The notes beneath the pieces were generated by a model. The model was not told the origin of the DNA and did not search any database. It saw only the letters and a list, made by a program, of their open reading frames with translations. A DNA stretch of 64,000 nucleotides from Heliocidaris erythrogramma (taxonomy: Eukaryota; Echinodermata; Echinoidea; Camarodonta; Echinometridae): NCBI GenBank assembly GCA_025617745.1, contig CM046861.1, forward strand, positions 12,114,516 to 12,178,515, in the 5' to 3' direction. This document shows, piece by piece, positions 52,301 through 64,000 of this stretch. The position numbers and the translations under genes are program-made. Each line of letters opens with the position of its first letter. The stretch's first letter is position 1.

Positions 52301-55300
52301 CTTGTTTTCCGAATTTCTATTGTGACGGAATAAACCTATTGTTAGGATTCCCCTTAAGTCGCAGATAGGTAAATTATTATTAGTATTCCACATAATTATT
52401 ATTATCCTCCTCCAACCTTTCCCTGATGTACATGAGAGCTTCAGTCAGTCCAGCAGTTCTTTCTAAGATGGGACCTATGTGTAGGAGTTCATGTTGTATC
52501 TTTGTGCCATTTTTAACTCATACAGATTGACAGGATACTATGTCAACGGACATCCCAGCTCCGCATCACCGTAGAACACGGCCCGTCCTCCGCCCCCGTC
52601 CCTGATGTCTGCGAGATCTTCAGTCGGTCCAGCAGTGAAGAGAGCGACTCTCCTTCCTCTTCGAACGAGCCCGAGCGTCCTTCCATCAACAACAATGTTC
52701 AGTCCTCACTGTCTGACTGCTCACCCAGCGAGAAGGGACGCTTAGGGGTATTCAACTATGAGAGGAGACATATGAAACTAGATAGGCATGGATCAGCACC
52801 AAAAGTGTGAGTATTGTTGTGATTAAGATATTGGTTAGGGTTAGGGTTAGAGTCCTTCTGTCAAGACCAATCTTCAGCCCTCACTGTCTGAGTGTTCACC
52901 AAGCCGGAAGGGATGTTTAGGAGTATTCATCTATGAGAGGAGACATATGAAACTAGATCGGCATGGATCAGCACCAAAAGTGTATTTGATTCTTGCATGT
53001 GATTGAAAACTACTGTTCATTTGTTATTGGTTAGGGTTAGGGTTAGAGTCCTTCTATCAAGACCAACATTCAGCCCTCACTGTCCGACTGTTCACCATAT
53101 TGGTGTATTTGATTCTTGCATGGATTGAAAAAAAAAGATTGAAAACTACTGTTCATTGGTTATTGGTTAGGGTTAGGGTTAGAGTCCTTCTATGAAGACA
53201 AATGTCAGCCCTCACTGTCCGACTGTTCACCCCTCACTGTCCGACTGTTCACCAAGCGAGAAGGGATGTTTAGGGGTATTCATCTATGAGAGGAGACATA
53301 TGTTTTCACGCCCATTAGTGAAACAGGCTCTGACATATTAGCACAGCATACATTTGATACAGCTGTCATGATAAATTGAATATTAAATGAAAGTTGTTCT
53401 GCTCTACTAACAGAGGATAGCTGGTTTCACAAGTGATATTTATATCTTGACTTGGACTCATACAGACACCAGTATGGGCTGGACCCAAACCAGCCATCAC
53501 TGTGAATCATGTTACTGCATGGGAAGGATGTCAATGATACGCACACCTCACAACAAGAACGGGAATTTGCCCAAAAATAAGCCACCAGGAAGGAAGTGTG
53601 TGGTTTTGTGTTTATATACAATAATGGGAAGTAGAGGATGAAAGATTAGTTTCAGATAAATTCCCGGTATCTCTTCCTATAGATAGATTTATGATGAACA
53701 AAGTGTAACTTTATATGTTTTTTCTTTGCAACATTCGTGCATGGTCACATGCTCTCTTCTGCTAAAAGTTTTCTCTTTTTTTTGTATGTGTATGTGTCTA
53801 GAACATTTTAGGGAACATAGTCATTGTTTATGTTGAAAGACATTTAAACAAAATGATCTTTAACTTTGATTCGTAATGTATTTATGATTGAATTATGTAA
53901 ATCCATAGGTATTTTATTTGCAACATTTGTGCACGGTCACACCCTGTCTTATGCCGGTAGTTTTATTTTTTTGCATGTGCGTGTGTGTATGAAACATTTT
54001 AGGGAACATAATCCATGTTCATGTTGAAAGACATAAAGACGTAAATGAAATGATTTAATAATGTATAAATTTTATGATACAATTATTACAAAACATGCCA
54101 AAGAAAAGTATACTGTTTGCTCTTTCTCTTTCATGTCTCTCTTTCTTCTCACATGTTCTCTGTCTGTCCATGTTTTACTACTGGTATCTTTTAGTGAAGA
54201 TGTGTAGGTCATCTGTTGCGAAACTTTCCATTTAAGGAGGAGCTTCATAGAGCTTTCATTTATCTTCTTCCAGTGCTATAGAAAGTACAACCATTAAATG
54301 ATTGGAAGCTACTTGAACTTTAAAAAAATATTGAATCAATTTCAAGTATTTCTTTGAGATTTATGAAGCATGACAATGTAGACTTCCTTTCGAACAACAG
54401 TTTGTCCTTAGGGAAGTAAAAGGCAAAGTTGTATATTTATGGTTGTTTGTAGTTCAGGTCAATTTTGCTGATGTAAGCTCTACAACTTTCACTTCAAAAA
54501 ATAATTATATCATAGCCATATAGTTGTTTGTTTGGTTTCTTTAAAAGTTGAGTCATTTCTTTTGCCCCTGTTCCGCTTTCCGTGCACCCATGTGATCAAT
54601 AAGCTGGCTTCGAAAGTAGAGCCTTTGCACAGATGTTTTAACTTCCTCATCAAGGTGCCAGGGAATATCTCGCTGCTTGATTTCAAAATACCCTATTTAA
54701 TTCCCCTGCTCTGTATTGATCCTGTATGCCAGGAATTGCAGCTTATGCAGGCTTGATTAGAAGCATGTATGGAGCTGTGAGAATCAGAAGGGTATTAACT
54801 CTATGTAAAGTCATGTGGATTAACGCCCTTCTAGCTCTCAGTATATATGTCATGTAATAGACCTGATAAAGTTCCCCTCAGGAGATTTGAAGGAAATGAT
54901 GGCTATCAAGAAAGAGGAGGTCATTTCCTAGATCTATTCCAATATAGCAGACTCCAGTCTATGGTTCCCTGCTATGAATCTACTAAAACATCCAATGTAC
55001 ATTTAACATTACTATATATTATGTCTTTTGCTATTCTTGTTAATTTGATTATCCTTTAAAGGTTGACTAAATTAGAGAGAAAATGGGTGCTATTTCCATG
55101 TACTTTTGCCTTCTAATCACGAATCTGGTAATCGATTGTCCAAATTATGTCTTCTTTTGCTGAACAAAGGGGAAAAGTAGAGGTTTGGGACCATTCCTTA
55201 AAACTTGTGAGCTGATTGGCTAATTGATGTCACACCCCCAAGTGACGTATGAAGAGTAAGAGGCCCAAGATCTGCAGGCTGCAGCATATAACATTGGTGT

Positions 55301-58300
55301 CGTGGTCTAGCGGATACGTCACCGGACTGTGGATCACATGATTTGCGGTTCGAGTCCAGCCGCGGCACTAACGTCCTTTGGCAAGACATTAATCGACATT
55401 GCCACTCTTACCCAGGAGATAATGGGTACCTGTGAGGATTGTCGAAAGTCATTGTGACTGTTTTTGCCATTGCCCTACATGCATGCATGTGAACGGTGCA
55501 AAATGGTAGGAATGCTCCCTAAGGGAGTGGAGATGGTGCATACTTGTGTGCGGGGTTGAAATCCAATGACCAGGGGTAATGATAAATAACATAAAGATTG
55601 TACAGCGCATTGAAGTATTCACATAATGCGCTATATAAATGTAATATATTATTATTTATTTATTATTGTACACACACTGCGGTATTTGACCCCTCTGTTC
55701 AACGGACAATTTATGAAAAAAGGAAATTAATCAATATAGTCTTAGGAGTGAATAATCATTATCAATATATTTTCTACAAGATCAGCAAACACTTTTGCCC
55801 AAATATACAGCTCTTGTTTTGTTTTTTAACTTTTTTTAAAACAATGTTCTCATCCATCTGAGCTTGCCGAACGAAAGTTTTGCATTGGTCTTAAACGCGT
55901 GCACAGCCGTTTTATGCGTCTGTACAATGTACTACACATCTTTAGTACGGCAGTTACTATGTTCCCCTCGTACTTAGCGACTGGTGAACGCTTTTGTTTT
56001 GTTTATTTCACTTTCGGCTTTTTTTTACTTCGCTTTACATACTACGGTAGTACTGACTTAGATTTTGGCTGAATTCGAGTAACTTATATAGAGAGATGAA
56101 AAGTGACCGCGATTCCGAGTTGGAGGACTTTTTTGAGCCAGATACGAACTCTGATTTATCAGTTGATTTATCAGATCCCGAAGGTAAAGAAGCTCAAGTG
56201 GCAAGGGGAATTCGACCATATTATATGTTTGAACCCCTCGCAGAAGACGTGCCGGGGCCTGGTGAAGGGGCCGTGGGTGAAGTAACTCCAGGGAGCTCCA
56301 ACGCGTTGGAGCTCCCTGGAGTTACGGGTGAAGTAGACCGAAAATTCTGTCTCTCGTTCGTTAGCTAAGTGAAGAGCTAACGAACGAGAGACGGTCTACG
56401 GGTGAAGCTGCTGCAGCTGCTGGAGATGATGTCGTTGAAAAAAGATTGGAAGACTTGACTCCAAGTCTGATCGTTGGAATAGCTGAATCTTTTAGCTTGC
56501 TTCTCCTTTTCTTCATGCCAAATTCGGAATACAGGCCAGGATCCTCAAAATCATCTTCGGCAAAGTGATCACTGCAGATTGTACTCCACTCACTTGGCCG
56601 GCCCTTGCCACTCTGCCCGCGTGAGCTTTACCTTTGCGACCCACAATTTCCGTAGATTTTCATCTTTAGGAAAAAGATGTAGGCTTACATAATCTTTAGG
56701 GGTCTTGCTACAGCCCGCAACTATACACCGATTCGGCATTATTGATGAAACTGTGTCCCCAAATCAACGTTATTGTGAGGAATTAAACACGAAAATATGC
56801 AATGCAAATGGTCGATGCGGTGAATATCATGCTCGCGCTCGGCACCGTACCGGGCTGGGCCTGCCAGGCCTGCGGGCGTGCACGGTATACAGGTGGGTGG
56901 AATATTTATACCCCCGCCAAACGAAGTTTGAAGGGGGTATATACATGTAGGAATGAGTCACCGGTTGGGCGGTCGGTCGGGCCGTTGCAAATCTTGCGGA
57001 TCGAACTACTTTCTCAGTTTTTGACCAAAGCTCATGAAATTTGGTACACACATTGGTCTTGGTGGGAAGATGTGCAAGACATATTTTTCGGATGAGTCGG
57101 AATCTGCGTTGCCATGGTAACGGCATATTTATGACAGAAAATCAAGGAAACACCTTGCGGATCGAACTACTTCCTCAGTTTTTGACCGAAAGTCATGAAA
57201 TTTGGTACACACATTGGTCTTACTGGGAAGATGTGCAAGACATATTTTTCGGATGAGTCGGAATCTGCGTTGCCATGGTAACGGCATATTTATGGCAGAA
57301 AATCAAGGAAACACCTTGCGGATCGAACTACTTCCTCAGTTTTTGACCGAAAGTCATGAAATTTGGTACACACATTGGTCTTACTGGGAAGATGTGTACA
57401 ACATATTTTTTTGATGTGTTGGAAGCTGCGTTGCCATGGAAACGGCATATCTATGGCAGTAAATCAGGGAAAAATCTTGCGGATCGAACTACTTCCTCAG
57501 TTTTCGACCAAAAGTCAAGAAAGGCTGTTGTCACGAGGCGGGGGTATTAATCATCATCTTCAGTGATATTTCTAGTTTTCTTTACTTCTCGTACGTCACA
57601 GATCACGTCATCACAATGTCGCTTCGATGGGGTTTTTTTAGGGGCGGGGCTTATGACTGTAAATCAGCAAAAATGTACTTTTCAAATGATTATGAAATAC
57701 GACTGAATGCATCAAAATTTGTGTGATAGATATTTTTTGGCTCCTGATGCCTCCTTCTTACGAAAAATGGGCAATTAATTTTCTATTTTAGTCACCCTTT
57801 AATATATTAATATTTTTTCAACCACTAGATTCAAGATTCAAGATTTATTGTCCATATATAATAAAGAAATTTGCTTCCCATTGGTGAATACCAAAGTTAC
57901 AAATTTAACATCCAAAATGAGACACCAACACACCAACAGTGGTCGCCGCCGTGCAGCGCCCTCATGTTACTATGTTCATGTATCTACTCCTGATCAGGTT
58001 CAGCTGCTGCACTTTTAGGGAGAGGTACATGTACGTATCTGTTTTCCACTCTACATCAATTCTGTTCCCTTTATTTTAACACATTTACTGATGCACTGAA
58101 CTAGAAGGAAGCATGGATTTAAGACTGATCTTATGAGAATGATTTATTGAGTTTGCTATGCTTTGCAATTCTCTGTCATATAGGGTAAAACTGCCTATAA
58201 GAGAGTTGGAAAACAATTGAATCGACAGTAAACGTACTGGTAGAAGTTGAGAGGATGATGGTGCATCTGCTGTAGAATATCGTATATAAAGTCAGACTGT

Positions 58301-63723: not shown

Positions 63724-63728
63724 GTAAG

Positions 63729-64000
63729 TACATCTCACATTTCTTCATCACTTAAGGTCCTTGAGAATGAAACAGCTAAAATGTTGCATGTATGAGGAGG
63801 GGTTTTTCTTTTTCTTTTTATCTTGTGGATGGGAGAGGGAACCCAAGTCAGACTTAGGTTCCAGAGCAGAGTTTTTATGATATCCTGTATTTTCTTCACA
63901 CTCCTTAACAGTGAACCAATGGGGTTTATTTACATCTCACATTTCTTCATCACTTAAGGTCCTTGAGAATGAAACAGCTAAAATGTTGCATGTATGAGGA
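63729..64000 (+). repeat. 70-bp identical direct repeat after the last LIMK exon (period 202)
   Basis: 63729-63798 (TACATCTCACATTTCTTCATC ... GTTGCATGTATGAGGA) recurs without a change at 63931-64000 and is cut by the window edge. It starts 6 bases after the exon end, so the donor itself is not duplicated. Confidence 0.93.

Follow-up and report, generated by a model that had tools for sequence, protein, structure and literature searches.

Decayed partial exon copies, probable remnants of ordinary short duplications, and a minisatellite array in introns of a sea urchin LIMK gene

Introduction

The closest described counterparts of the repeats reported here are exon duplications within genes and intronic minisatellites. 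The part of the Exonize report drawn on here describes exon parts that were copied into an intron of the same gene and are often degenerate, and finds duplications of the partial, inter-boundary and intronic kinds in significantly more genes than full-exon ones (approximately 4-7% of vertebrate genes; PMC12343006). Tandem duplications also give rise to mutually exclusive exons, as set out in the portion of a second report that concerns them (PMC9013439). The subject of this work is a 64-kb stretch of the Heliocidaris erythrogramma genome (C9:12114516-12178515, the window), which contains part of a LIMK gene with repeats beside several of its exons. These repeats, which lie in the LIMK introns, are very probably remnants of ordinary short head-to-tail duplications together with a single minisatellite array; the kinase part of the gene is intact as far as it was followed.

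The LIMK locus shares with the Exonize catalogue the copying of exon parts into an intron within the gene; the catalogue, as far as that part of the report describes it, is built from annotated genes and translated matches, whereas the LIMK fragments are short and come from a DNA comparison in one unannotated genome (PMC12343006). As in the tandem duplications that yield mutually exclusive exons, LIMK exon sequence is duplicated beside its source, but unlike the exons in the portion of that report considered here, no LIMK copy seen amounts to an entire exon flanked by both its splice sites (PMC9013439). The LIMK array resembles intronic minisatellite arrays in general, with 12 head-to-tail units of 202 bp that are approximately 97% alike and lie at one place, and differs from them in starting at intron position +6, right at the edge of the hinge-exon donor. 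No description of the LIMK exon copies was found in the literature searched, as judged by titles and abstract openings.

Results

The LIMK gene and its exons

The window belongs to a 1.06-Gb assembly of 26 contigs and was compared with itself. The next 29.7 kb past the window end were added, which gives 93.7 kb around LIMK; coordinates above 64000 lie beyond the window. The exons to which the text refers are as follows.

52526..52806, + strand, linker exon of LIMK, lying between the PDZ and kinase parts, with open frame and splice sites (donor GTGAGT)
60346..60432, + strand, catalytic-lysine exon, 87 bp, phase 0-0
62648..62735, + strand, next kinase exon after the lysine exon, 88 bp
63680..63723, + strand, hinge exon, 44 bp, donor GTAAGT
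59609-59759, 60346-60432, 62648-62735, 63680-63723, 66389-66448, 67477-67542, 68043-68217 and 69193-69407, LIMK kinase exons

The listed kinase exons splice in silico into a single open frame. The joined exons match LIMK1 (3s95) with E = 1.7e-107 and LIMK2 with E of about 1e-95, and the next-best chain, labelled receptor kinase, has E = 1.9e-41. These matches identify a LIMK-type kinase domain. The kinase part is intact as far as it was followed (to 69407) despite the neighbouring copies. Peptides at approximately 25284 and 29124 score above the LIM cut-off and a peptide at approximately 49562 above the PDZ cut-off; their order and strand suggest that they lie on the same transcript as the kinase exons, of a gene in which not all expected exons were located.

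Three exons carry decayed partial copies

The linker, catalytic-lysine and next exons are each partly duplicated, in decayed form, in the adjoining intron. The copies of the linker tail, the lysine-exon head and the next exon are partial (inter-boundary) exon duplications.

52405..52457, + strand, weaker partial copy of bases 61-111 of the linker exon, upstream of it, 79% identity
52849..52981, + strand, downstream copy 1 of the linker exon tail (exon bases 149-281), 87% identity
53025..53097, + strand, downstream copy 2 of the linker exon, truncated, matching piece 53045-53096, with a TTAGGG-like leader
53161..53302, + strand, downstream copy 3 of the linker exon, matching pieces 53181-53225 and 53224-53302, with an internal 22-bp repeat
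60197..60245, + strand, upstream copy of the lysine-exon head, acceptor CAG kept, truncated
62792..62886, + strand, downstream copy of the next exon, spanning nearly the whole exon, gapped with the frame broken, donor deleted

Self-comparison of the window thus recovers the linker, lysine-exon and next-exon repeats that the initial annotation had reported, and adds the upstream linker piece, which was absent from that annotation. The annotation's count of four independent tandem duplications holds for the three exon-edge duplications, one of which is repeated several times, and fails for the fourth, which is an intronic array. The annotation gave periods of 150-350 bp, in rough agreement with the 123-196 bp of the linker copies and the 149, 145 and 202 bp of the others.

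In linker copy 1 the donor GTGAGT has become GTGTAT and there is no preceding pyrimidine tract (both judged by eye). Compared with the exon over 129 bases, this copy has 12 differing bases in codons that change the amino acid and 5 in silent codons, a ratio that, taken as a plain count, appears to be about what drift would give. The matching pieces of copies 2 and 3 have 80-90% identity, and copy 3 lacks the exon end and donor. All three downstream linker copies carry a TTAGGG-like leader, GGTTAGGGTTAGGG, at their head (52829-53185). Across the 93.7 kb the motif has these three occurrences and no others, and the 200 kb of control sequence (20 hand-chosen stretches at round coordinates) has one. 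This telomere-like motif was considered as a cause of the duplications and rejected because it lies within the repeated unit, so that its three occurrences may represent one event and are no proof of cause.

The core of the lysine-exon head copy (60197-60232) has 81% identity (E = 5.7e-6 in a local search of approximately 1.1 kb), and inclusion of the intron tail widens the match to approximately 60142-60245 at lower identity and with gaps. The next-exon copy has 85% identity overall and 90.5% in its best 74 columns, and is preceded by a purine-rich stretch without a pyrimidine tract (by eye). An opposite-strand weak match of the next exon (71%, E = 2e-5) lies nearly all inside the exon itself and was excluded from counts. 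None of the LIMK copies seen makes up a whole additional exon with an open frame and a splice site at each end; each is truncated or without splice signals. The copies are presumably not spliced.

The 63729/63931 repeat is a 12-unit array

The repeat 6 bases after the hinge exon had been described as a pair of copies at 63729 and 63931. This two-copy duplication was rejected because the sequence past the window end shows the pair to be the left end of a 12-unit, 202-bp array that runs for 2.43 kb.

63729..64000, + strand, first units of the 12-copy 202-bp intronic array, which continues to 66158, 2158 bases past the window end
62158..62565, + strand, array with a 108-bp unit repeated approximately 3.5 times, on the upstream side of the next kinase exon
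50440-51949 and 56993-57522, other arrays in the same stretch, absent, like that at 62158-62565, from the initial annotation

The array begins at hinge-intron position +6 and contains no exon sequence. Its near-identical units lie head to tail at one place on C9, as in a minisatellite array. At least 51 matches to the unit were found genome-wide: 12 in the array and 39 elsewhere, all of the latter partial, within query bases 110-194 (the second half of the unit) and at 75-89% identity. The array unit is therefore partly a dispersed repeat.

Geometry of an exon-edge duplication

Slippage or template switching during replication is the usual explanation for short head-to-tail repeats. A short head-to-tail DNA duplication (approximately 100-200 bp) would cross one exon edge, and the copy would then decay. 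If the duplication spanned the exon end, the intact exon would be kept and a loose tail gained downstream; if it spanned the exon start, the intact exon would again be kept and a loose head gained upstream. Since a loose piece has at most one splice site, it would rarely be spliced and would then decay. The observed placement has the lysine-exon head upstream and the linker tails downstream of their exons. The geometry is less clear for the upstream linker piece, which holds only bases 61-111, and for the downstream next-exon copy, which is close to a whole exon. The head-upstream and tail-downstream placement follows from the geometry of edge-spanning duplication, and this includes three control exons, at loci L046, L051 and L058. 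Replication slippage or template switching is probably the process at LIMK, where the breakpoints are too decayed for a confident reading. Heads upstream, tails downstream and at most one splice site give a rule for telling such debris from candidate alternative exons.

At L046 (C14:31128791-31129988), the exon at approximately 501-696, with a reading frame that we take by eye to be NEK-like, has at least three tail copies downstream, and the donor GT is changed to CT in both copies where it is visible. L058 has a head copy upstream with the acceptor AG lost. L051, the weakest of the three control cases, has a 25-base acceptor and head stretch upstream.

Exon copies at LIMK compared with background

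An exon was scored as having a copy when a same-strand copy lay at most 500 bases away with E <= 1e-3; the scoring ran without a low-complexity filter, so that the random rate may be inflated. The LIMK set comprised 13 intervals at the located exons, with 53466 as a candidate only and with approximate ends for the two LIM intervals. The 26 control kinase exons were hand-picked from 133 kinase matches before their sequence was seen; they are mostly short open frames, were not taken strictly in list order, and have edges that are match edges and not exact exon ends.

Copies were found at 3/13 LIMK intervals and at 3/26 control kinase exons (2/20 in one batch and 1/6 in the other), compared with 19 of the 160 random 240-bp pieces and 119 of the 1040 random size-matched pieces. 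The LIMK intervals do not differ significantly from the control exons (Fisher p = 0.38) or from the 160 random pieces (p = 0.22), and the control exons do not differ from the random pieces (p = 1.0). From the size-matched rates, the expectation for LIMK is 1.49, with P(>=3) = 0.18. The exon copies at LIMK are thus not clearly exceptional, and exons are neither clearly targeted nor spared; the samples are small and a modest excess is possible. Similar scraps beside some other sampled kinase exons make the LIMK copies look like ordinary local DNA duplication. The view that so many copies are unusual for one gene is not borne out by these counts, and striking exon-beside-exon repeats in one gene can be normal background in a repeat-rich genome.

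Several observations weigh against an origin of the copies in ordinary duplication and decay. The LIMK exon-copy rate is twice the control rate, a non-significant difference. Linker copy 1 has no stops and no frameshifts or gaps over its 129 bases, and the lysine-exon head copy retains a good-looking acceptor. The density of tandem clusters (period 60-600) in 50001-69500 is 4-5 times that of the control stretches, and some local factor may therefore raise the rate there.

The open frame and the retained acceptor would be expected if the copies were alternative exons, or leftovers of exons that were formerly alternatively spliced. The initial annotation had likewise raised past trials of exon duplication for alternative splicing, an idea undercut by the lack, among the copies seen, of any full exon with both splice signals. 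The copies are truncated or miss the splice signal at one end or at both, that of the next exon has gaps and has lost its donor, and the linker-copy substitutions look neutral, so this origin has almost no chance of being correct.

The cluster density bears on a different explanation, that a local sequence or replication feature makes the 3' half of LIMK a true tandem-duplication hotspot, which is compatible with short duplications as the source of the copies. There are 17 clusters in the 93.7 kb around LIMK and 20 in the 200 kb of controls. Nine of the 17 fall in the 19.5 kb of 50001-69500, against 1.95 expected (Poisson 2e-4, for a region chosen for its apparent richness), and the remaining 74.2 kb is at background with 8 clusters. 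One of the nine (60870-61511) is a pair 473 bases apart, possibly a dispersed element present twice, and the exon-touching copies alone are without clear excess. The earlier suggestion of a replication-slippage hotspot thus keeps the raised cluster count in its favour, with the reservation that the region was picked as rich-looking. A hotspot is a possible but doubtful addition to ordinary short duplication.

A copy of the next exon 13.5 Mb away

The next-exon stretch recurs at C9:25634245-25634588 (approximately 345 bp), 13.5 Mb away, within C9:25634000-25635000 (L059). The distant copy comprises the next exon with intron sequence around it and the greater part of the neighbouring pseudo-copy. 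A segment of 173 bases around the exon (approximately 62573-62745) is identical at the two places, and both sides are diverged. Homology extends from the exon copy for approximately 140 bases upstream and approximately 115-125 bases downstream and stops there, and the distant copy sits amid three copies of a 24-base A+T-rich repeat. Because introns were copied along with the exon, the distant copy is not mRNA-derived. The presence of the pseudo-copy at the distant place indicates that the local duplication predates the dispersal or existed in its source allele.

No other LIMK exon lies near the distant copy among the protein-search matches listed, and the genome search matched the linker region at one place and at no second. 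A 92% match at C9:25.63 Mb had raised the possibility of a retained haplotype of the whole LIMK gene there. This was rejected: the exon is alone among the matches listed, homology stops on both sides of it at the distances given, and the linker region matched one place. The broader alternative, that assembly error or haplotype merging produced the copies, draws on equal-score pairs of kinase matches, e.g. 24-466 kb apart, that may be retained haplotypes, and on the approximately 97%-identical array, in which copy number may be misassembled. The exon copies, however, are approximately 10-20% diverged from the exons, with indels, and stand in series within an intron; the second genomic place holds the next exon with most of its adjoining copy, and the linker region is found once. 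An assembly-error origin of the exon copies appears unlikely from these features, and the explanation as a whole has only a slim chance compared with decayed short duplications.

Splice signals in the copies

Among copies that include a donor, it is lost or altered in 3/3 (next exon, L046 and linker), and among those that include an acceptor, it is kept in 2/3 (lysine exon and L051) and lost in L058; these numbers are far too few to show selection. A wider picture, which we consider improbable as a whole, is that in this lineage short pieces (100-400 bp) are copied nearby and occasionally far away, that approximately 1/9 of exons bear a decayed copy of their own edge, and that copies may survive mainly with the extra donor disabled, so that edge copies would form a record of splicing selection. 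If the small-sample rate holds genome-wide, exon-edge copies could serve to date duplications and to gauge selection against stray splice sites.

Other features of the locus and of the kinase matches

Window positions 13694-15605 contain recent tandem duplications, with sizes of 240 bp (98%) and 460 bp (97.6%). At 56364-56627, inside a LIMK intron, the minus strand has a frame that matches part of a THAP domain (Pfam E = 3.2e-6) and is probably a transposon relic. A palindrome-like element of approximately 140 bp at 62949-63087, with ends GGGGAGCGTTTCATCAAGC... and its near reverse complement (by eye), is likely a miniature inverted-repeat element.

Equal-score kinase pairs, for example C10:31854754/32287308, C7:35086486/35552057 and C3:45129510/45153420 (these three 24-466 kb apart), may be retained haplotypes or recent segmental duplications. 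Ten places share an equal kinase-domain score (134.1 bits) and have uninterrupted frames of 654-1453 amino acids.

C3:33668210, C3:33684952, C4:20680917, C4:40920824, C7:26665808, C9:42515592, C13:19458096, C13:29223811, C17:13187026 and C18:5657301, equal-score kinase places

These ten resemble a mobile element, or a repeat of that kind, that is dispersed in the genome and carries a kinase domain.

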